This document shows, in pieces, positions 22,901-62,410 of a stretch of DNA of 64,000 nt. The stretch lies in assembly GCA_958295465.1 (NCBI GenBank), contig OY282353.1:1674001-1738000 (forward strand), read 5' to 3'. The notes below the pieces were generated by a model. That model worked only from the letters and a program-made list of their open reading frames with translations, made no database searches and was not told the DNA's origin. The position numbers and the translations under genes were made by a program. Origin of the DNA: an uncultured Gammaproteobacteria bacterium. GTDB taxonomy: Bacteria; Pseudomonadota; Gammaproteobacteria; HK1. Positions within the stretch are counted from its first letter, which is position 1, and each line of letters begins with the position of its first letter.

Positions 22901-24218
<1,318 letters not shown>

Positions 24219-24229
24219 CGAGAACCCGC

Positions 24230-24412
24230 ATGGCCGGAAAGCGGAAGCGGGGAAAGGCGGGCGACGGAAGGAGTCGAGGCTCATGAAAACCCGCTTGGCC
24301 GGAAAGCGGAAGCATGGGAAGGCGGGCGACGGAGGGAGTCGAGGTTCATGAAAGCCTGCATGGTCGGAAAGCGGCAACACGGAAAGGCGGGCGACGGAGG
24401 GGGTCGGAACTC
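24230..24412. repeat. 65-bp tandem repeat carrying start codons and mini-ORFs upstream of ligC
   Basis: ATG codons at 24283, 24348 and 24413 (the ligC start) are exactly 65 bp apart, each preceded by GGCGGGCGACGGA-GGAG-type ribosome sites. A fourth, shorter member starts at 24230. Each unit encodes a 18-22-residue basic peptide (for example MKTRLAGKRKHGKAGDG...) whose TGA overlaps the next ATG as ATGA: mini-ORFs 24230-24286, 24283-24351 and 24348-24416. The start of ligC itself (MNICMVGEG) is a diverged version of the unit. The arrangement is a cascade of coupled upstream ORFs. Confidence 0.85.
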
Positions 24413-25363
24413 ATGAATATCTGCATGGTTGGAGAAGGGGCGTTCGCGCACAAGCACCTCGATGCGCTGGCGCGCATCGAAGGCGTGGAGGTCGCATCCA
24501 TCGTGGGCGGCGTGGCCGAGCACACCCAGGCCGTGGCCGGCAAGTACGGGATCCCCCACTGGACGATGGATCTCGACGAGGGCCTCGGCCAGCCGGGGGT
24601 GGAGGCGGCCATCCTCGCCTCGCCGACCCCGCTGCACGCCTGGCAGGCCGAGTTGGTGATGCACGCCGGCAAGCACGTGCTCATCGAGATCCCGATGGCG
24701 GATTCGTTCGTGAGCGCCGAGCGGGTGATCGAGATACAAAGGTCCACCGGCCTGATCGCGATGGTGAACCACGTGCGACGCTTCAACCCGAGCCACCAGT
24801 GGGTGCACCGGCGGATCCAGGCCGGGGAGCTGCAACTTCAGCATCTGGTGGCCGAGACCTTCTTCTTCCGCCGCACCAACATCAACGCGCTGGGCCAGCC
24901 CCGGAGCTGGACCGACCACCTGCTGTGGCATCACGCCTGCCATACGGTGGACCTGTTCCAGTACCAGACCGGCGACCTCGCCGAAGACGTTCAAATCCTG
25001 CAGGGTCCGCCCCATCCGGAGCTGGGCATCGCCATGGACATGAGCATCGGGCTGACGTCGCCCTCGGGGGCGGTGTGCACGCTCTCGCTCTCGTTCAACA
25101 ACGACGGGCCGCTCGGCACGTTCTTCCGCTACATCTGCGACAACGGCACCTGGATCGCCCGATACGACGATCTGGTGGACGGCCGGCAGCAGCCCATCGA
25201 CGTCTCCGGCGTGGACGTGTCCATGGACGGCGTCGAGCTGGCCGACCGCGAATTCATCGCCGCCATCAGGGAGGACCGGGAGCCGAACGCCAGCGTCGCC
25301 CAGTGCCGGGGCGCGATGTGGACGCTCGACCGCCTGCAGCGATGCCTGCCCTACGGCAGTTGA
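24413..25363 (+). CDS. ligC: 4-carboxy-2-hydroxymuconate-6-semialdehyde dehydrogenase (LigC, Gfo/Idh family)
   Basis: 316 residues (family about 315). NAD(P)-binding Rossmann start MVGEGAFAHKHLDALARIEG; GKHVLIEIPMADSF; strongly conserved C-terminal half with RSWTDHLLWHHACHTVDLF and LSLSFNNDGPLGTFFRYICD, as I remember Sphingobium LigC. Oxidises the LigAB product (as its cyclic hemiacetal) to 2-pyrone-4,6-dicarboxylate. No ligI or ligJ follows in the window, so the rest of the pathway lies elsewhere. Confidence 0.93.
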   Translation: MNICMVGEGAFAHKHLDALARIEGVEVASIVGGVAEHTQAVAGKYGIPHWTMDLDEGLGQPGVEAAILASPTPLHAWQAELVMHAGKHVLIEIPMADSFVSAERVIEIQRSTGLIAMVNHVRRFNPSHQWVHRRIQAGELQLQHLVAETFFFRRTNINALGQPRSWTDHLLWHHACHTVDLFQYQTGDLAEDVQILQGPPHPELGIAMDMSIGLTSPSGAVCTLSLSFNNDGPLGTFFRYICDNGTWIARYDDLVDGRQQPIDVSGVDVSMDGVELADREFIAAIREDREPNASVAQCRGAMWTLDRLQRCLPYGS

Positions 25364-25445
25364 TGCGATGGCTGCGACTCATGATCCAGCTCCCGCGCCG
25401 CTTCGCTCCGACCGGTGATCACCTTCACCGGAATGCGCAGTCGAA

Positions 25446-25589
25446 TCACAGCAGTGACGGATACTTCAGCCCGAACACCGCCAACCCCGGCATCAGGTAC
25501 TCGGCCAGGCACAGCCCTCGGCTCGACACCGGATCGTCCAACTCCTCGAAGCAGGCGCGCACCATGCGCAACAGGCCCGGCGCGCTCAA
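25446..25589 (-). mobile_element. Transposase N-terminal remnant
   Basis: 48 codons read LSAPGLLRMVRACFEELDDP and then LAEYLMPGLAVFGLKYPSLL before a TGA where the family normally has Gln followed by FD. This pattern is the N-terminus of a full-length IS transposase I have seen in proteobacteria but cannot name. The body of the gene and both IS ends are gone. The remaining bases of 25364-25821 hold no gene. Confidence 0.5.
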
Positions 25590-25727
25590 TCCCTCCCTTC
25601 AACATGCACCTTCGATTCAACAGCTCCACGGCTCCACCTGCAGCTCCATCCCCCCTCCGCCTTCAGGCACATCTTCGTATTGGAAAAGACTGCGCCATTC
25701 GGTTGGCCTCAACGCAGGGCGATTCAC

Positions 25728-25771
25728 GCCAACGTCCCCCGATACGGTCGCGTCATCGGGATTTCGCGGCC
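25728..25771 (-). repeat. Diverged partial copy of the 122-bp element
   Basis: On the minus strand, GGCCGCGAAATCCCGATG plus the following 25 bases to GGACGTTGGC match the internal and right-end part of the elements at 31590-31632 and 31710-31752. It lies just beyond the xerD stop; the left end is not recognisable. Confidence 0.55.
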
Positions 25772-25821
25772 CTGATCCGGTCGAAGCCGCCGATGCCCAG
25801 GGCACGGAGTCCGTCGCCTCT

Positions 25822-30692: not shown

Positions 30693-31508
30693 ATGCCCAC
30701 GTTGCTCGCCGCGCTCGCGGCCGTCGTCTACCTCGTGGCGGCGGTGCGAATCGCACGCCATCTCCGTCACCCGCGGGACGAACGGCCGGCGCGCGACCTG
30801 TATGCATGCGCCACCGTGTGGTGCGGCGTCGTCCTTCATGCCATAGCGGTTCGGCCGGCGCTTGCGCTCTGGAGCGGGCCGATGCTCGATCTGCCCGCCA
30901 CCGTCTCCATCGCGGGGCTCGCCCTGGCCGGGGTGTTCGGAATCGCCCTGCTCTGGCGCATCGACCATGTCGTCGGCGCGCTCGTGCTCCCTCTCGCGGC
31001 CATCGCGCCGCTCGTCCCGGTGATGTGGTCAGGGCAGGCGCTTCCCGCCGGCGCATCCACGGCCCCCATCCACGCCGTGATCTCGATCCTGACCTATGCG
31101 GTGCTGGGCCTCGCCGCGCTGCAGGCTCTGATCCTCGGCTACCAGGAACACCGGATCCGAACCAAACGGCCGGGAGGGGCGCTGAGCGCCCTGGCTGCAC
31201 TGGATACCCAGGAGCGCTGGCTGTTCCGGCTCGTGGGGGTCGGATTCTTCCTGCTCAGCCTGAGCCTCGCCAGCGGCTTCATGTTCGTCCAGGACATGCT
31301 GGCCCAGCACCTCGCCCACAAGACGGTGCTTTCCGGTATCGCCTGGGCGATCTTCGGGGCTCTGTTGTGGGGACGCCGACGTTACGGATGGCGGGGACAG
31401 ACCGCGGTACGATGGTGCCTGGGAGGGTTCGTGGTGCTGGTGCTCGCGTACTTCGGCAGCCGCTGGATCCTGGAGGTACTGCTCGACCGGCGCTGGTACT
31501 CCGCCTGA
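30693..31508 (+). CDS. ypjD: Cytochrome c assembly (CcsA/HemX)-like inner-membrane protein YpjD
   Basis: 271 residues, about eight membrane segments. CcsA-type core: TAPIHAVISILTYAVLGLAA, FLLSLSLASGFMFVQDML, HKTVLSGIAWAIFG, matching the conserved His positions used by haem-handling proteins. In gammaproteobacteria this family (YpjD/CorE) lies between ffh and a CorC-like gene, exactly as here. Function is not firmly known; a haem or magnesium-related role is proposed for the family. Confidence 0.85.
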   Translation: MPTLLAALAAVVYLVAAVRIARHLRHPRDERPARDLYACATVWCGVVLHAIAVRPALALWSGPMLDLPATVSIAGLALAGVFGIALLWRIDHVVGALVLPLAAIAPLVPVMWSGQALPAGASTAPIHAVISILTYAVLGLAALQALILGYQEHRIRTKRPGGALSALAALDTQERWLFRLVGVGFFLLSLSLASGFMFVQDMLAQHLAHKTVLSGIAWAIFGALLWGRRRYGWRGQTAVRWCLGGFVVLVLAYFGSRWILEVLLDRRWYSA

Positions 31509-31522
31509 CGCCCTGTCGAAGC

Positions 31523-31641
31523 CGGCAATTCCCTCCAGGCCGAAAACGTCCATCGAATCACCGCGACCGGGCGCCCGGACGGCAGGGAAGGCCGCGAAAT
31601 CCCGATGGCACGACCGGATCCGGGACGTTGGCTGGCATTGC
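31523..31641. mobile_element. Older degenerate 122-bp element, interrupted at its right end
   Basis: Left end CGGCAATTCCCTC resembles the terminal repeat CAGCAATTCCCGC. The body is 70-80% identical in order to the next element. The right terminus GTTGGCTGGCATTGCCA (12 of 17 positions of the family end) is split by the younger insertion at 31642-31763: bases 31633-31641 TGGCATTGC recur at 31764-31772 and the last CA follows. Rejoined, this copy is about 121-122 bp. Confidence 0.7.
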
Positions 31642-31763
31642 CAGCAATTCCCGCTAAGCCCGAAAACATCCATTGAATCGCCACGACCAGACGCTCAGGC
31701 AGCAGAACAGACCGCGAAATCCCGATGACACGACCATGTTCGGGACGTTGGCGGGAACTGCTG
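31642..31763. mobile_element. Intact 122-bp non-autonomous inverted-repeat element (copy 1)
   Basis: Begins CAGCAATTCCCGCTAAG and ends GACGTTGGCGGGAACTGCTG (imperfect inverted ends). It is flanked by a perfect 9-bp target duplication TGGCATTGC (31633-31641 and 31764-31772). It aligns without gaps to the reverse complement of the element at 52158-52279, including AATCGCCACGA, GACGCTCA and CGAAATC blocks. No coding capacity. Confidence 0.82.
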
Positions 31764-31842
31764 TGGCATTGCCACATCCCTTGACAGCACGGGGACGGCT
31801 CCCACGTAATAGGGATCAGCACCACGCGAGGGCTCCCCGCGT

Positions 31843-33123
31843 TTGAGCGACGTTCCGCTAGGCATCCTGATCGGCGCCCTGGTCGTCCTCGTCATACTCT
31901 CGGCATGTTTCTCCGGCTCCGAGACCGGCATGATGGCCCTGAACCGGTACCGGCTGCGCCATCTCGCCAGAGCTGGACATCTGGGCGCGCGGCGCGCGAA
32001 CCGGCTTCTCGATCGCCCGGACAGGCTCATCGGCCTGATCCTCCTCGGGAACAACTTCGTGAACATCGCCGCGTCCTCCCTGGCGACGGTGCTGGCGTTG
32101 CGCCTGCTTGGGGAGGCGGGCATCGCTCTTGCGGCGGGCCTCCTCACCCTGATCATCCTGATATTCGCCGAAGTGGCGCCGAAGACCTTCGCGGCACTGC
32201 ACCCGGAGCGTGTCGCGTTTCCCGCCGCGCACGTTCTCACCTGGCTGCTCGTCGTCCTCCAGCCGCTGGTGGTCGCGGTGAACTGGATGGCGAACGGGGT
32301 GCTGCGGCTGCTGCGCCTGCCGCCGTCCGGAGCCCGTCGCGATTCCCTGAGCCGCGAGGAGCTTCGCACCGTCGTGGCGGAAGCCGGCGGACTGATCCCT
32401 CGCCGGCACCGGCAGATGCTCATGAGCGTCCTGGATCTCGAGAAGGTCACCGTGGACGACATCATGGTCCCGCGCCAGGAGATCAACGCGATCGATCTCG
32501 ATGATCCTCCCTCCGAGATCCTCGAGCAGATCATGCATGCGCAGCATACGCGCGTTCCGCTGTACCGGGGCGACATCAACGAGATCGAAGGCATCCTCCA
32601 TCTGCGCCGGGTCATCGCCCCACCGAGAGAGGACGGCCTGGCCGAGTATCTCCGGGCGCAGGCGGACGAGCCCTATTTCATACCCGCCGGTACCCCCTTG
32701 AGTGCGCAGTTGCTCAACTTCCAGCGGGCTCATGAGCGGATCGGACTCATCGTCGATGAGTACGGTGAGATCGAAGGACTCGCCACCGTGGAGGATCTGC
32801 TCGAGGAGATCGTCGGGCAATTCACCACCGATCCGACCGATTACAGCCCCGACGTCCACCCCCAGGCCGACGGCACGTATCTCGTCGACGGCTCCGCGAA
32901 CGTGCGGGAGCTCAATCGCGCGATGCACTGGGAGCTTCCCACCGACGGCCCCAGGACGATGAACGGACTCATCATCGAGCATCTCGGGTCCATCCCCGAG
33001 CCCGGCACGAGCCTCATGATCGCGGGCTACCCGATCGAAATCATGCAGACCACCGGCAACGCGGTACGAACCGCCCGGGTCATCCCTTCACTGCGCAAGA
33101 CGAGGACGGAGCCCCGTGCTTAG
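31843..33123 (+). CDS. corB: CorC/HlyC-family membrane protein with CBS domains (CorB/YfjD type)
   Basis: 426 residues from a TTG start. DUF21 membrane domain at about 1-190 (LVILSACFSGSETGMMALNR; LIGLILLGNNFVNIAASSLA; FAEVAPKTFAALHPERVAFP), two CBS domains at about 205-330 (DIMVPRQEI; RVPLYRGDINEIEGI), C-terminal CorC_HlyC domain (YLVDGSANVRELNRAM). Family members act in Mg/Co efflux or resistance. It forms with ypjD the usual pair beside ffh; the 334-bp gap between the two is filled by the nested elements. Confidence 0.9.
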   Translation: MSDVPLGILIGALVVLVILSACFSGSETGMMALNRYRLRHLARAGHLGARRANRLLDRPDRLIGLILLGNNFVNIAASSLATVLALRLLGEAGIALAAGLLTLIILIFAEVAPKTFAALHPERVAFPAAHVLTWLLVVLQPLVVAVNWMANGVLRLLRLPPSGARRDSLSREELRTVVAEAGGLIPRRHRQMLMSVLDLEKVTVDDIMVPRQEINAIDLDDPPSEILEQIMHAQHTRVPLYRGDINEIEGILHLRRVIAPPREDGLAEYLRAQADEPYFIPAGTPLSAQLLNFQRAHERIGLIVDEYGEIEGLATVEDLLEEIVGQFTTDPTDYSPDVHPQADGTYLVDGSANVRELNRAMHWELPTDGPRTMNGLIIEHLGSIPEPGTSLMIAGYPIEIMQTTGNAVRTARVIPSLRKTRTEPRA

Positions 33124-40208: not shown

Positions 40209-40856
40209 TCAGTCCTGCGCCGCCTCCCGGGACCGATCCGTGGGCTCACCGGCTTCGGACGATTCCGCGGACGGCTCGCCGTCCGACGCCCCGGGACCAC
40301 CGGCCTCGCCCGGCTTCGCGGCGGCGGCAGTCTCCACCGGCGCAGCAGCAGTCTCCACCGGCGCAGCAGCAGTCTCCACCGGCGCAGCAGCAGTCTCCAC
40401 CGGCGCAGCAGCAGTCTCCACCGGCGCAGCAGCAGTCTCCACCGGCGCAGCAGCAGTCTCCACCGGCGCAGCGGATTGCCGGTCGCCCGACTCGCGTCGC
40501 CGGCCCCGGCCGCCTCGCTCGTCCTTCCCGTCCTTCTCCTTCGACTTCACGAGCGGCGACGGATCCGTCGCCGCCGAATCGCGTCGGATGACGAGGTGGC
40601 GAATGACCGCGTCGTTGAACTTGAAGGCGCTGGTCATGCCGTCGAGCGCAACGTGCGTACACTCGACGTTCATGAGGACGTAGTGGGCCTTGTGGACCTT
40701 GTGGATCGGGTAGGCGAGCAGGCGCCGTCCCCAGTCTTCGAGCCGGTGAATGGAGCCCCCGTCCGATTCGACCATCGAACGGTACCGTTCGATCATCGCC
40801 GGGACCTGCTCGCTCTGGTCCGGATGGACCATGAACACCACTTCGTAGTGCCGCAT
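40209..40856 (-). CDS. rpsF: 30S ribosomal protein S6 with a long repeat extension
   Basis: 215 residues, against about 100-135 in most bacteria. Residues 1-95 are a normal S6 ([40 protein letters not shown]). The C-terminal 115 residues are low complexity: a charged segment [20 protein letters not shown], then APVETAA repeated seven times, then a Ser/Glu-rich acidic tail. E. coli S6 ends in glutamates added by RimK; here the tail is encoded instead. First gene of the rpsF-rpsR-DUF2232-rplI-dnaB cluster. Confidence 0.95.
40330..40475. repeat. Seven 21-bp tandem repeats inside rpsF
   Basis: Unit GTCTCCACCGGCGCAGCAGCA, seven near-perfect copies (GTCTCCACC at 40330, 40351, 40372 and so on every 21 bp), encoding APVETAA on the minus strand. 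Near-identity between copies implies recent expansion and copy-number instability. Confidence 0.92.
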
Positions 40857-41084: not shown

Positions 41085-42047
41085 ATGCACGATCCTCTTC
41101 CGCGGCTGGCCCGCACGTCCTTTCCGCCGGTGCGCCGGAGCCGGCTCACGACGCTGCAGGTCAACCTGGGCTACCGCTGCAACCAGTCCTGCGTGCACTG
41201 CCACGTCAGCGCCGGCCCGAACCGCACCGAAGAGATGAGCGCCCGGACGGTGGGCGAAGTCATCCACTTCATGAAGGTGTCCGGCGTATCGGTGCTGGAC
41301 GTCACCGGCGGCGCCCCGGAGCTGAACCCGAGCTTCCGGTTCCTGGTCGATGCGGCGGTAGAGCATGGCGCGCGGATCATCGACCGGTGCAATCTCACCA
41401 TCCTCCGCGAGCCCGGCCAGGAGGACCTCGCCGAATTTCTGGCCGTCCGGCAGGTCGGCGTCGTCGCGTCGTTGCCGTGCTACCTCGACGAGAACGTCGA
41501 TCGCCAGCGTGGCCGGGGGGTCTTCGACGCGAGCATCGAAGGATTGCGGCGGCTCAACGCCCTGGGCTACGGCGGCGATGACACCGATCTCTCCCTCGAC
41601 CTCGTCTTCAATCCGCAGGGACCCGTGCTCCCGCCCCCCCAGCACGAGCTGGAGCGCACCTACAAGGCGGAGCTGTGGCGCCGCTTCGGAGTCAGGTTCA
41701 ACCGGCTGCTGACCCTGGCGAACATGCCGATCGGCCGCTTCGGCAGCATCCTCATCTCGAAGGGGCAGTTCGAGGAGTATCTCGGGATGTTGCGGGCCGC
41801 CCACGTGGACGCGAACGTCGAGCGCGTGATGTGCCGGCATACCGTGAGCATCGACTGGCAGGGGTATGCCTACGACTGCGATTTCAACCAGATGCTCGGA
41901 CTGCCGATGCGGCTCAACGGATCGCCTCGCACCCACGTCACGGATCTGACGTCGGTCGACGTCGAGGGGCGGCCGATCGTGATTCGTGACCACTGCTTCG
42001 GCTGCACCGCGGGGCAGGGCAGCGGTTGCGGCGGGGCACTGGGCTGA
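41085..42047 (+). CDS. arsS: Radical SAM protein ArsS (arsenosugar biosynthesis)
   Basis: 320 residues. Radical-SAM cluster motif [19 protein letters not shown] at about 25-43 (CxxxCxxC), SAM-binding [13 protein letters not shown], and a C-terminal DUF3641 cysteine region ([15 protein letters not shown]) likely holding auxiliary Fe-S. ArsS proteins join the adenosyl group to dimethylarsenicals on the path to arsenosugars. Two small glycosyltransferases follow, matching reported gene neighbourhoods. No arsM is in the window. Confidence 0.9.
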
Positions 42048-42258
42048 ACGGGCGCAACGGCCGGTCGCCGTCGCGCCATGCGCCGGTGATCTCGGTCATC
42101 GTCCCGGTACTCGACGATGCCGAAGCCGTCGCTTGCTTCGGCTGCACCGCGGGGCAGGGCAGCGGTTGCGGCGGGACACCGGGCTGAACGGGCGCAACGG
42201 CCGGTCGCCGTCGCGCCATGCGCCGGTGATCTCGGTCATCGTCCCGGTGCTCGACGAA
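41994..42258. repeat. 140-bp tandem duplication across the arsS/glycosyltransferase junction
   Basis: TGCTTCGGCTGCACCGCGGG starts at 41994 and again at 42134. About 125 bp are near-identical, covering the last 18 codons of arsS, its stop and the first codons of the glycosyltransferase. The first copy ends arsS and starts an abortive glycosyltransferase; the second repeats the arsS tail and starts the real one. Confidence 0.88.
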
Positions 42259-42903
42259 GCCGGAGCCATCGCGCGATGCCTCCGGCCGTTGCAGGCTCTG
42301 CGCGGGCGCGGAATCGAAGTCGTCGTGGTCGATGGCGGCAGCCGGGACGGGACCCGGGACGCCGCCGTTCCCCTGTGCGATCGAATTCTCGACGCGCCTC
42401 GTGGCCGCGCGCGGCAGATGAACGCGGGCGCCGGAGCCGCCGGCGGTCAGGTGCTGTTGTTTCTGCACGCGGATACGCGGCTTCCCTCCGGCTGGAGCAG
42501 GATGGTTCGGGACGCGCTCGAAGACCGGAGCCGCGAATGGGGCCGGTTCGACGTGCGGCTCGACGGTGCGCATCCGGTGCTGCGGGTGGTCGAGCGCGCG
42601 ATGAACCTGCGCTCGCGGCTGAGCGGCATCGCCACCGGCGATCAGGCGATCTTCGTCAACCGGGCCGCTTTCCGGGCGGCCGGCGGCTTTCCCGATATCG
42701 CCCTGATGGAAGACGTGGCGCTCAGCCGCGCGTTGCGGCGGCGCTCACGCCCGGCCTGTCTGCACGCCGCGGTGGTGACGTCGAGCCGGCGCTGGGAGCG
42801 CAATGGAATCGCCCGCACCATCATGCTGATGTGGCGGCTGAGGTTTCAGTACGCGCTCGGCGCCGACCCCGAGATACTGGCCCGCCGGTACCGGGATGGC
42901 TGA
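42226..42903 (+). CDS. TIGR04283-type family 2 glycosyltransferase
   Basis: 225 residues from GTG 42226. GT-A start [32 protein letters not shown], a PRGRARQMNAGA segment, FLHADTRLPSGW (DxD-like), GDQAIFVNRAAFRAAGGFPD and EDVALSRALRRR. This family is often found beside ArsS and the TIGR04282 protein encoded next. Within the upstream duplicate a truncated copy of its first 20 codons exists. Sugar substrate unknown; a role in arsenosugar assembly is inferred. Confidence 0.82.
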   Translation: MISVIVPVLDEAGAIARCLRPLQALRGRGIEVVVVDGGSRDGTRDAAVPLCDRILDAPRGRARQMNAGAGAAGGQVLLFLHADTRLPSGWSRMVRDALEDRSREWGRFDVRLDGAHPVLRVVERAMNLRSRLSGIATGDQAIFVNRAAFRAAGGFPDIALMEDVALSRALRRRSRPACLHAAVVTSSRRWERNGIARTIMLMWRLRFQYALGADPEILARRYRDG

Positions 42904-46118: not shown

Positions 46119-46331
46119 CGGGTTCCGGACCGGGCGGCGCCCGGGTCGCGTGGCGTGGCGGTGGCCACGAGAGCGAGCATGGTGTGGACCACCGCCGCAC
46201 GCTCGCACGGCGGCGGGCCTGGCGGGAATTGCCGGCGGTTTGCTCCGATCATGTGATTCCGATGCGAGCCTGTAGCATACTTTTCGCCACTCACCGGACA
46301 GAGGGCGGCGGACCCGAGCGGAGACGTCTCC

Positions 46332-52121: not shown

Positions 52122-52498
52122 TCCCGCGAGAAGCTGATCGAATGCAAGGACAACGTGCAGCAATTCCCGCTAACCCCCCGAAGTACGGTTCCCCAGCTTG
52201 ATTTCGGGGATACTCCGGTAGTTTGAGCGTCGAATCGTAGCGATTTCACGGATGCCTTCCGTGTTAGCGGGAATTGCTGGACAACGTGAAGACCTACTGG
52301 ACCGGCGGTGACGATCTGTCGAACCTGCTCCGCTCCGGTGAAATCGTCGCCTACGACGCCTGGGACGGCACCGCCTTCAAGCTGAACACCGAAAACCCGG
52401 ACATCAACTTCACGCCCCCTGCCCACGGGACGCTGGCGCTGGTGAGCGTGTTCGTCCAGCTCGAAAAGAGGCGGTCGCCGGCTCCACGGAAACGATGA
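52122..52498 (+). pseudogene. PotD-like polyamine-binding protein fragment, split by an inserted element
   Basis: Left of the element the frame gives SREKLIECKDNV. Right of it, after removing one target duplication, it continues NVKTYWTGGDDLSNLLRSGE, then IVAYDAWDGTAFKLNTENPD and INFTPP. This is the middle of a spermidine/putrescine-type extracellular binding protein. Neither the signal peptide nor the C-terminus is present; the frame ends at 52498 in unrelated basic residues. The gene was already a remnant, or became one, when the element inserted. Confidence 0.7.
52158..52279. mobile_element. Intact 122-bp non-autonomous inverted-repeat element (copy 2)
   Basis: Perfect 17-bp terminal inverted repeats CAGCAATTCCCGCTAAC and GTTAGCGGGAATTGCTG, flanked by a perfect 9-bp target duplication GACAACGTG (52149-52157 and 52280-52288). 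It has the same length and is homologous in reverse complement to the element at 31642-31763. No open frame of note. It interrupts the potD-like fragment. Confidence 0.9.
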
Positions 52499-59034: not shown

Positions 59035-60675
59035 TCAGGCCGGATCCCGGTGGATCAGCGACAGCACGGAGCGCGCCCGGCTCATGGCCACGTAATGCTC
59101 GGCGGATTTCCGGGCCGCTCCATCCGGGGCGGGAAGATCCACGACGACGATCGCCTCGTTCTCGAGACCCTTGAACTCCCCGATCCTTGCGAACCCGACC
59201 TTGTCGCCGGGGATTTCCCGCATGGAATACTCGTCCAGCCGCCGGACCCGGCGTGCGGCGGCCGGAGGCATCAGGGCAACGGAAGACTCGGCAAGATCGA
59301 GCGGCGACAGGATCGTCACCAAACCGGGCGCCAGTCCTCCCACGTCCACCAGTTCGCCGATCTCGCGTGTGGTCCGCTCGGCGGATTCCCGCCGGGTGGC
59401 GGCGCTCTGTGTGCGGACGGCGGGGCCAGCTCCGGCCCCGTGTACGCCCAGGTCGGCGTCGAGGGTGGCCTGTATCCATTCCAGGATGACCCGGGTGTTG
59501 CGGCAGTTGATTCGCAACGGCATCCGCACGGGGTCGAGCGATTCCAGGTGGTCCTTCGCACGCCGATCGAAGCGGGGGGTCAGCGACTGGTTGTTCAGGT
59601 CGTGGAACCAGCACCAGCGCCCCGTTTCCAGTCCGCCGTCCAGGACGCCGTCCAGGGTCTCGATGCAGTCCATCTCGAACAGGTCCTGCCCTTCGTCGAC
59701 GATCAGCGCGTCGAAGCGTTCCAGTCCGGCCCGGCGGCAATCGAGGCGCACGCCGTCGATCGACGATACGGCCAATCCGGGCATCGAAAGTCGTGATGCC
59801 AGATGATGCCTCAGCCAAGGGGACCGGCATACCAGAGCGACCTGCAAGCCGGCCTCGGCCCAGCGCCGGGCCAGCCGTTCGGCGAGGAAGGTCTTGCCGG
59901 TGCCCGCTCCGCCGGCGCAAAGCACCCGTGGATTCGCCTCCGCCACGTCGGCCATGCGCATCTGATCCTCGGTCAATCCCTCGATGCGCCGCCCGGCGTC
60001 CTCCATCCGATGGAGCAATCGGACGGCTTCTTCTCTCTCGCGGGCATCCACCTCCGGGCGGAGCAAGTGGACGGCTTCTTCCCTCTCGGGGGCGTCCACC
60101 TCCGGGCGCAGATACCCCTGAAGCCTCGCCAGTGCGCCATCGTCATCGTCGGGCCGGCCTTTCCATCCTGCTCGTGCGCGCCAGTACTTGAACAGACCGC
60201 ACAGCCAGCCTTCGAGGTCGCGGCTGCGACGCGCATCGGCGAACATCGCGGGGTCCCACTCGGCGCCGTCGCTCCGCCATTCGCAGTCCGGAAACACCAT
60301 CCCGTAGCCCGTGGTGAACCGGTCGAGCACGTCTTCGGGCAGGTTGGCGCGCAAGTCTTCCATCAGTCCGTGAAGCGCCGTCTCCGCCTGGCGGAACGGA
60401 CTCTCCTGGGACAGGGTGATCCCGCCGTTGCGATCCCGGTACCGCCACACGCCGTCGTGGCACGCCACCCTCCCGCCCTTGACCTCGATGGCGTACAGGC
60501 CATCGGGACCGCAGATGACGAAATCGATCTCGGGGAACCGTTTACGGGGATGCCGGGTCGGCTTCAGGGAGTGGAAGGCCACGTAGCGATCGTCGAAGGC
60601 GGCGCGCAATCTCTCGAATACCCGTTTCTCCGCCTGGCTGCCGGTATCGTAAGGCGCGCTCGGGATCATGCGCAT
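59035..60675 (-). CDS. NERD nuclease-domain / superfamily I helicase fusion
   Basis: 546 residues from MRM at 60675. Residues about 12-130 are a NERD domain with PD-(D/E)xK-like residues (FPEIDFVICGPDGLYAIEVKGG). Residues 215-546 are a UvrD-like ATPase: Walker A CAGGAGTGKTFLAERLARRW, Walker B LIVDEGQDLFEMD, LRINCRNTR, FKGLENEAIVVVDLP and YVAMSRARSVLSLIH. A 16-residue segment (VDAPEREEAVHLLRPE / VDAREREEAVRLLHRM) is duplicated between the two parts by a 48-bp repeat at about 60021-60116. Such fusions are common in phage-defence loci. Last gene of the 59-64 kb cassette. Confidence 0.85.
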   Translation of the reverse strand: MRMIPSAPYDTGSQAEKRVFERLRAAFDDRYVAFHSLKPTRHPRKRFPEIDFVICGPDGLYAIEVKGGRVACHDGVWRYRDRNGGITLSQESPFRQAETALHGLMEDLRANLPEDVLDRFTTGYGMVFPDCEWRSDGAEWDPAMFADARRSRDLEGWLCGLFKYWRARAGWKGRPDDDDGALARLQGYLRPEVDAPEREEAVHLLRPEVDAREREEAVRLLHRMEDAGRRIEGLTEDQMRMADVAEANPRVLCAGGAGTGKTFLAERLARRWAEAGLQVALVCRSPWLRHHLASRLSMPGLAVSSIDGVRLDCRRAGLERFDALIVDEGQDLFEMDCIETLDGVLDGGLETGRWCWFHDLNNQSLTPRFDRRAKDHLESLDPVRMPLRINCRNTRVILEWIQATLDADLGVHGAGAGPAVRTQSAATRRESAERTTREIGELVDVGGLAPGLVTILSPLDLAESSVALMPPAAARRVRRLDEYSMREIPGDKVGFARIGEFKGLENEAIVVVDLPAPDGAARKSAEHYVAMSRARSVLSLIHRDPA

Positions 60676-60870
60676 GACGGTGTCCGGCCCCCGAGCGCCC
60701 CGCCGATCTTCGCCTCGGTTCCGTGGTCCGGATGCGCCCTGGCCAATGACCCGAATATCCGTTTCTCCGCCTGGCTGCCGGTGTCGCGGGGCCGGTTCGG
60801 GATCATGCGCATGACGGTGTTCAGCCCCCGAGCTTCCCGCGGATCTTCGCCTCGGTCCGGTGGTCCAGGC
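60612..60870. repeat. 137-bp tandem duplication across the gene junction
   Basis: CGTTTCTCCGCCTGGCTGCC occurs at 60623 and 60760; the flanking GATCATGCGCATGACGGTGT and CGGATCTTCGCCTCGGT blocks repeat at the same distance. The unit contains the 3' end of the 529-residue protein's gene and the 5' end of the helicase gene. Confidence 0.85.
60666..60812 (-). CDS. Chimeric mini-ORF created by the junction duplication
   Basis: 48 codons: MRMIPNRPRDTGSQAEKRIF matches the helicase N-terminus (MRMIPSAPYDTGSQAEKRVF), then DHGTEAKIGGALGG matches the C-terminus of the upstream 529-residue protein (DHRTEAKIRGKLGG). It begins 8 bp after the upstream stop and its TGA (60666-60668) overlaps the helicase start by 10 bp. 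It probably relays translation between the two genes; the peptide is unlikely to have its own function. Confidence 0.45.
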   Translation of the reverse strand: MRMIPNRPRDTGSQAEKRIFGSLARAHPDHGTEAKIGGALGGRTPSCA

Positions 60871-62410
60871 GCGCCCCGGCCAGTGACTCGAAGAATCGAT
60901 CCAGGTCGATTTCAGGGGAAATCCCAGGCTCGCCGGGTAGATCGATATACGTCGAGCCCCCCTTGACGGTGAGCGTGTATTCACCGGGGCCGAGGCTGAT
61001 CCGGGTATGGACGCAGTCCCATTTCTGCGCCTTGGCAAGTTCCAGCGCCGCGGATCTCTCACGGAACCGCCAGGTCGAGCCGTCGCCGAACAGCTCGCGC
61101 AAGGGGCGGACCCTGGCCGGCGCCTGGCCCAGGTCGAGTCCGGTTCCGGCAATCCGGTGAGCCATTCGCGCCATGCGATGGGAGACCGCATCCGAGAGTG
61201 CGCGGCCGGCGCGGAGCCGGAGAGGAAGATCCATCCATCCGTCGTGGGCACCGAACAGGATGGCGGCGGCCAGCCAGTCCGGCTCGGCGAGCCGGTCGCT
61301 GTCGTAGTCGAAGAGATCCGCGCAGTCGCGGCGCAGCAGGAACAGCGTCATGGCATGGGCCAAGGGGGTATCGTGCCGCTCGAACAGCTCGCCGGCCGTT
61401 GCGCCGGCGAGCCCCGTCAGCGAGACGAGGGTGTCGTGGAGCTTCCCGACACCCGCCTGGAGGCGCGGGTCGAGGCCGCCCACGGCCGCGGCAAGGTGAG
61501 CGATCAGCACGTCCTCGGCGCTGCCGGCGCGGCCGGTGTCCCGCCACTCCACCAGCCGTTCGACGGTCTCCCAGAAAAGCCTTGCCTGGGAGGCGTTCTG
61601 CAAGCCGATCCGATCCGTCCCGGGATCCGCGGGCGCCGGCAATGACGCAACCCCGTCCCGGATCCAGGTTTCGAGTCCGGCCAGAATCGGATGGTCGTCC
61701 GCTGGGCGCGGCGCCTCGCCGCCGTCCGGGTCGAACGCCACCCGGCATGAGCGAACCGCCTGCTCGCCCTGGTTGGCGAAGAGCAGCAGCATGGCCATGA
61801 CCCCGCCGGCCGCGAGGGGACCTTGCAGCGGGGCGCTTCGCTCCGGGGGGCCTTCGCCGGGCGACGGCCAGGGGGTGTCCGGCGCCTTGGTGAAGAGAAT
61901 CCCTTGGGTTCGGAGCTTGAACTCCTTGAGCGGCACGTTGCCGAAGTCCTTCGCATCCGTTTCACATGCCCGTTTTTCTTCGGCCGACGGAAAGACGATC
62001 GACTTGATCCGGGAAACGGGCAGCGGCGCGGGGACCAGGAGCAGGCGCTCGGTCCCGTCGAGCCGGTCCGGGAAATACCGCTCCCTCGGACCGTCTTCGC
62101 CGATTGCCGTCACGTTGCCCGACAGCCCGGAGAGGCCGATCTCGACGATGATCGGCCTGAGGTGCCCCGCCTCCTGCGTACACGATTCGATCGCTTCCTT
62201 GGGCGCCCTGCCGATGAACAGGGGGATCCAGCCGGGGAAGCATTCGAGGGTGTCGCGGTAGTACTTGCCGCCGAACCCGGCGGGCGGCATCACCAGACCC
62301 GCCGCGAGCATGTACATCAGGTTCAGGTGGTTGGTGACGAGCAACCCCGGACCGGGCGCCTTCGCCGGAGCAGGCCCGTTCGTCGACGTGAACATGTCCG
62401 CGGTGGCCAT
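60821..62410 (-). CDS. Unrecognised 529-residue protein of the helicase/DUF1998 cassette
   Basis: No family recognised. Visible features: an N-terminal helical segment LLVTNHLNLMYMLAAGLVMP, GFGGKYYRDTLECFPGWIPL, PIIVEIGLSGLSGNVTAIGE, a middle helical domain with MTLFLLRRDCADLFDYDSDR and LAAAILFGAHDGWMDLPLRL, and a basic C-terminus (LDHRTEAKIRGKLGG). No P-loop, HKD, methyltransferase or PD-(D/E)xK motif is evident. The ATG abuts the stop of the preceding ATPase gene with no gap, so it is co-translated with it. It is a candidate effector or sensor of the cassette. Confidence 0.75.
   Translation of the reverse strand: MATADMFTSTNGPAPAKAPGPGLLVTNHLNLMYMLAAGLVMPPAGFGGKYYRDTLECFPGWIPLFIGRAPKEAIESCTQEAGHLRPIIVEIGLSGLSGNVTAIGEDGPRERYFPDRLDGTERLLLVPAPLPVSRIKSIVFPSAEEKRACETDAKDFGNVPLKEFKLRTQGILFTKAPDTPWPSPGEGPPERSAPLQGPLAAGGVMAMLLLFANQGEQAVRSCRVAFDPDGGEAPRPADDHPILAGLETWIRDGVASLPAPADPGTDRIGLQNASQARLFWETVERLVEWRDTGRAGSAEDVLIAHLAAAVGGLDPRLQAGVGKLHDTLVSLTGLAGATAGELFERHDTPLAHAMTLFLLRRDCADLFDYDSDRLAEPDWLAAAILFGAHDGWMDLPLRLRAGRALSDAVSHRMARMAHRIAGTGLDLGQAPARVRPLRELFGDGSTWRFRERSAALELAKAQKWDCVHTRISLGPGEYTLTVKGGSTYIDLPGEPGISPEIDLDRFFESLAGARLDHRTEAKIRGKLGG

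Follow-up and report, generated by a model that had tools for sequence, protein, structure and literature searches.

The TnGBS/ISLre2 elements (p-MULT 3) and the ISKra4 group insert 15–17 bp upstream of the sigmaA -35 box, a preference that Guerillot et al. termed unusual (2014, PMC3942029). In TnGBS/ISLre2 the right end mostly adjoins the promoter and contact with the transcription initiation complex has been proposed; members of the ISKra4 group (p-MULT 4) whose ends are almost the same insert in both orientations (PMC3942029). The p-MULT transposases are defined by a 99–138-aa alpha-helical insert between the second D and the E and by a C/D(2)H motif 11–19 aa after the second D (PMC3942029). 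According to a 2024 review, promoters are found inside the element in many bacterial MITEs, and a search of that review by key terms returned no mention of such promoter targeting (PMC10969869).

The MITE family described here follows a target rule that is new and resembles that of TnGBS/ISLre2 in distance: the element end is followed by a 9-bp target duplication (TSD), by exactly 8 bp, and then by an outward-pointing sigma70-type promoter, so that the -35 box lies 9 + 8 = 17 bp away. The focal locus lies in a 64,000-nucleotide window (G000:C1:1674001–1738000) of the 5.68-Mb, single-contig genome G000. Here, two successive MITE insertions have very probably taken place at this fixed promoter position. 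A 1.6-kb insertion sequence (IS) that shares their terminal repeats (TIRs) most likely moved them in trans. The features of the locus, and of a copy elsewhere in the window, are as follows.

30693–31508, plus strand: ypjD-type gene (cytochrome c assembly family; PF01578, E = 8e-26), upstream
31523–31641, plus strand: older MITE copy, left 119 bp; 76% identity to the younger copy, profile match of 86 bits
31633–31641, plus strand: left copy of the 9-bp TSD, TGGCATTGC, identical to 31764–31772
31642–31763, plus strand: younger MITE copy, 122 bp; 97% identity to G000:C1:5261690–5261811
31642–31658, plus strand: left TIR of the younger copy, CAGCAATTCCCGCTAAG, paired with the right end both by folding and by alignment
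31747–31763, minus strand: right TIR of the younger copy, CAGCAGTTCCCGCCAAC as read on the minus strand
31764–31772, plus strand: right copy of the 9-bp TSD, TGGCATTGC, identical to 31633–31641
31773–31774, plus strand: final 2 bp of the older copy in the most likely reading, or else ordinary flank
31843–33123, plus strand: corB-type gene (CNNM, CBS and CorC_HlyC domains; PF01595, PF00571, PF03471; NF008604 above cut-off), downstream of the targeted promoter
52158–52279, minus strand: second-locus MITE copy of subfamily C, with the TSD GACAACGTG on both sides and a gapless alignment to the younger copy

It is confirmed that the apparent tandem repeat between ypjD and corB arose when a younger 122-bp MITE inserted into, or directly beside, the right end of an older one. 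The original prediction had placed two copies here, with the younger at 31642–31763 and an exact duplication around it, and both points were borne out. It had also expected the older copy to come to about 122 bp once the insertion was taken out: with the younger copy and one TSD removed, 31523–31641 plus 31773–31774 gives 121 bp, one base less than the 122-bp family length. The two copies share the same orientation, head-to-tail, and are identical in 93 of 122 columns. An exact 9-bp TSD surrounds the younger copy only, and the older copy was found to have no recognizable TSD of its own. The gapless alignment claimed between the younger copy and the reverse complement of the copy at 52158–52279 was likewise recovered (82 of 122 positions identical), with 51 of 88 interior positions identical compared with 37 in the best of 2000 shuffles.

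Searches with a sequence-only family model, built from 40 copies, returned at least 150 copies in G000, so the focal match is not due to chance. Among relatives, 58 matches were found in G002, 23 in G003 and 93 (diverged) in G004, and 0–2 in the remaining family members. The copies fall into at least four subfamilies that are nearly always 122 bp long and have strongly different interiors; every subfamily has a TIR of ~17 bp, and the elements have no coding capacity. For 105 full-length copies, exact 9-bp TSDs were seen in 36 and TSDs with up to two mismatches in 72, compared with 0 and 0.16, respectively, expected from randomly paired flanks. Four copies are 100% identical to one another, and the family has therefore been mobile recently. 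The elements thus show hallmarks of MITEs: they are short and non-coding with TIRs, their TSDs are of constant length, and they occur in high copy number together with an autonomous partner that has the same ends. A structured RNA was considered as an alternative and rejected; only the terminal repeats pair consistently, interior structure is unsupported, and an Rfam search returned nothing relevant.

Several other repeats were observed. At G000:C1:5261690–5261811 a repeat of the element's terminal 9 bp, GAATTGCTG, precedes the TSD; it could have arisen by slippage or mark the footprint of a second copy, since departed, that had inserted there. In the window, a lone TIR-like sequence, GCCGGCAATTCCCGCCAGGCC, lies without a partner on the minus strand at 46214–46236, and a 21-bp tandem unit is present in seven perfect copies at 40327–40472. 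Longer tandem repeats occur at 41994–42272 (140 bp x2, 95%), 24198–24428 (65 bp x3.6) and 60615–60892 (137 bp x2). Remnants of the MITE and of its putative parent are also found in the window.

25440–25598, minus strand: decayed parent-transposase gene fragment (residues 7–59, 66% identity, tblastn E = 8e-16); a longer match has stops
25719–25783, minus strand: decayed MITE fragment, profile match to positions 59–120

The putative parent was found by a terminal-repeat search. It is an intact IS of 1621 bp at G000:C1:55332–56952 with the ends CAGCAATTCCCGCT(A/T)AC, an exact 9-bp TSD (ACCGTCCAG) and a single gene for a 438-aa transposase; it is the only intact copy in G000, the remainder being fragments. 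Homologues with 46–67% identity were found in other genera, including Rhabdochromatium, Thiohalocapsa, a Cellvibrionaceae MAG and an uncultured gammaproteobacterium, and these share the TIR CAGCAATTCCCGC, with 9-bp TSDs visible in several. Similarity between MITE and IS stops at the terminal repeats. The idea that the MITE interior derives from a known IS copy was rejected, as the interior resembles none of them, and the ends are therefore what links the MITE to this IS by descent. Mobilization of the MITE in trans by the IS is nonetheless the most likely arrangement, as judged from the shared ends, the TSD length and the target rule. Copies of the IS that have lost internal sequence, with both ends retained and 9-bp TSDs, were observed in G002 (L256, 2371–3027) and in Thiocapsa sp. 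KS1 (L263, 2249–3232) and are possible steps from IS to MITE. A literature search on the TIR sequence returned no relevant paper; many subscription papers were outside its scope, and an earlier report of this IS family is possible. Nothing useful was found under ISDol1 as a family name.

Tn5 generates 9-bp target duplications, as does the present family, and the likeness extends to the transposase. In a Foldseek search with the AlphaFold model (mean pLDDT 87), the best PDB match was Tn5 transposase (E = 1e-11, TM ~0.56, 15% identity), and DDE_Tnp_1 (PF01609), a domain of the IS4 superfamily, to which IS50/Tn5 belongs, was detected in 9 of 14 members (best E = 4e-6). The family nevertheless stands apart from IS50/Tn5 by this low identity and by falling below every curated IS4-type cut-off: none of those for IS4, IS701, IS1380 and IS1634 was reached, all NCBIfam matches were weak, and the transposase of the window genome itself scored no more than 18.5 bits against NCBIfam cut-offs of 100–150. 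It may represent an unassigned IS4-like family. The target rule, to our knowledge, is unlike the known targets of Tn5 and Tn10. None of the 14 members matched a Mutator-type family model from Pfam or NCBIfam, even at E values as high as 1, and no C/D(2)H motif could be seen by eye after D220 in the 14-sequence alignment. The insert between the second D and the E is predicted to consist of beta strands (262–267, 273–283, 292–301 and 307–314), and a 99–138-aa alpha-helical insert appears to be absent from the model.

All promoters are sequence-based predictions made with an E. coli-type matrix. At sites with intact TSDs, TTGAC was found exactly 8 bp past the TSD at 9 of 144 sides, against a background of 0.04 per position, and TTG alone occurred there 20 times compared with 1.2 expected (P ~1e-18). 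The -10 hexamers peak at spacers of 17–18 bp after the -35 box. They are also found at the predicted place at outward ends that have no TTG, with 23 and 20 at positions 40–41 compared with ~2–3. A joint -35/-10 score above 6 was obtained at offset 8 for 28 of 72 sites, compared with 0.49 expected (P ~1e-41); offsets 7 and 9 gave 5 and 8, and the mean elsewhere was 0.49. Inward-pointing promoters were not enriched in the joint-score scan. The MITEs have two similar ends and face the promoter in either orientation (27 with the left end, 13 with the right). No recognizable promoter is seen at +8 at ~45% of the sites with an intact TSD.

The same rule could be found beyond this set. Ends outside the intact-TSD set contained TTGAC at this position 7 times compared with 0.3, and scores above 6 were obtained for 4 of 8 sites in G002, 4 of 9 in G003 and 5 of 9 IS copies, mostly from other genera. 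None of six older copies in G004 had a promoter at +8. This genome, from the same genus, has many diverged copies, which may be old or may follow another target rule. In Rhabdochromatium marinum DSM 5261, where TSDs can be paired across contigs, the rule was found at 5 of 7 transposase-3' ends and 2 of 8 opposite ends. Autonomous elements mostly lie with the transposase 3' end toward the promoter, comparable to the right end in TnGBS/ISLre2.

At the focal locus the predicted corB promoter lies at the position that the rule specifies.

31773–31780, plus strand: 8-bp spacer, cacatccc, from the TSD to the -35 box, exactly the 8 bp of the family rule
31781–31786, plus strand: -35 hexamer TTGACA (predicted corB promoter), the mark of the target, kept in G002, G003 and G004; joint score 11.9
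31805–31810, plus strand: predicted -10 hexamer CGTAAT, separated from the -35 box by an 18-bp spacer

Across the four genomes, the CATCCC/TTGACAG block has been largely preserved. In G002, the closest relative (contig OY282378.1; flanks 90% identical), neither copy is present between ypjD and corB. In the congener G003 there is a single element of subfamily D, 68% identical to the older focal copy, which obeys the rule at the same promoter: its TSD, CATTGCCGG, is followed by ggcatccc and TTGACA. No convincing element was found between these genes in G004, where the intergenic region resembles the older copy no more than shuffled sequence does under one scoring scheme and only marginally more under the other. 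The uninterrupted older copy that the original prediction had hoped for at this locus in related genomes was thus not found in any of them; what G003 holds is an independent element of another subfamily. The corB promoter was used at least twice in the focal lineage and once, independently, in G003.

Stacked pairs were also found elsewhere. Copies separated by exactly the 9-bp TSD occur at 476k, 2600k, 3872k and 4798k, and at 1006k in G002. The pairs at 476k and at G002 1006k are separate insertions, because their copies belong to different subfamilies, and insertions at 476k, 4798k and G002 1006k are independent and spaced exactly 9 bp apart. If the promoter remains intact and later insertions land beside it, the younger copy is predicted to be promoter-proximal, and this holds at four pairs (the focal pair, 4798k, 4960k and 1555k). 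The young copy at 4798k is without matching TSDs, and no promoter was seen at +8 on either side of the pairs at 2600k and G002 1006k. A further candidate, the pair 1895954/1896063, was rejected as a stacked insertion; G000:C1:1895954–1896184 is a 109-bp tandem segmental duplication that includes flank and half an element.

The focal copies lie directly adjacent in the same orientation, as they would if a single 120-bp unit had been duplicated in tandem and had then diverged with no second insertion, and the pair at 2600k could indeed be such a plain duplication. For the focal pair this is hardly credible. At 97% identity the younger copy matches a distant copy far better than it matches its neighbor (76%), from which it was therefore not copied, and the exact TSD surrounds this copy only. 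The empty site in G002 likewise speaks for insertion and not for tandem expansion, the pattern that the original prediction had named as fatal to it, and the presence of an intact parent IS, like the 9-bp TSD seen across the family, adds to the case for nested transposition. How the copies adjoin is a finer point. Only 6 bp separate the end of the older copy from the TTGACA box, instead of the 17 bp of the rule, so a loss of 11 bp must be assumed. If the younger copy merely abuts the older, TGGCATTGC would be the reused TSD of the older copy, whose last 11 bp would have been lost; the four pairs in G000 with exactly 9 bp between their copies and the promoter rule, which places the target of the older copy at the same 9 bp, are in keeping with this. 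The 11 terminal bases attributed to the older copy, TGGCATTGCCA, however, fit the TIR at 8 of 11 positions, in register (14 of 17 of the consensus when the next six bases are included), and yield the 121-bp copy, whereas a shared TSD is the poorer fit, with agreement at 5 of 9 positions in the older copy's left flank. Abutment is accordingly judged quite improbable. That the younger copy sits inside the right end of the older one, with the 11 bp lost from the flank, is the favored reading, though not proven; of the original prediction on this point, the insertion at that end stands, and its placement within the end is retained as the better fit.

The rule itself could have other origins. The TTGAC motif by itself is already strongly enriched at +8, and the transposase might simply prefer this sequence 8 bp from the cut, with promoters struck merely for containing it. 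We regard this as rather unlikely, since the -10 hexamers occur at the correct spacing, far beyond a plausible transposase footprint, and do so even where TTG is missing. Survivorship, in which insertions elsewhere were purged and those upstream of genes remained, agrees with the expectation that intergenic insertions are better tolerated. Selection cannot account for spacing fixed to one base, as seen in the scores at offset 8 and its neighbors, and this explanation has very little probability. Insertion directed by the promoter is thus preferred over both. The -10 box, more than 30 bp from the TSD, is part of the signal, and the spacing is exact to the base. It is therefore proposed that the promoter is recognized via RNA polymerase or a sigma factor and not by its DNA sequence alone. 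Another promoter-bound protein might instead help in target choice, which is not the reading favored here.

Under the proposed mechanism, the IS transposase would move the 122-bp MITE by way of the shared terminal repeats, probably in a cut-and-paste or similar DDE-type reaction, and would place it so that the element end, the 9 bp to be duplicated and a further 8 bp precede the -35 box, 17 bp upstream in all. The promoter would remain intact with the right distance restored, so that the same position could be targeted again, and because the promoter stays intact each new copy would land between it and the earlier copy. Stacking at corB is accounted for by repeated, fixed-distance insertion at one promoter.

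The present IS family behaves like the Mutator-like elements and stands outside their family. In contrast to TnGBS/ISLre2, its transposase is predicted to have a beta-strand insert and a Tn5-like fold, it matches no Mutator-family model, and abundant MITEs with stacked insertions are found. The use of both orientations by the MITEs is shared with ISKra4, where the transposase is Mutator-like, unlike those examined here, which match no such model. Like the Correia elements and MITEAba12, the MITEs are short and non-coding, have TIRs and TSDs, and are probably mobilized in trans; many such MITEs have internal promoters, whereas the promoter here is the target and lies outside the element. We lean toward an independent origin of promoter-directed transposition in a Tn5-fold (IS4-like) transposase that would recognize RNA polymerase holoenzyme, with insertion 17 bp upstream leaving the promoter usable and MITEs piling up.

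A geometry shared by Mutator-like transposases and a Tn5-fold family suggests that fixed-distance promoter targeting originated repeatedly and that bacterial elements in general find a safe landing site in the transcription initiation complex, much as yeast Ty3 does in TFIIIB. A Tn5-like enzyme, which is structurally tractable, together with cultured hosts would allow direct contact with RNA polymerase to be tested, and the MITEs pinpoint many promoters of an uncultured genome at base resolution.
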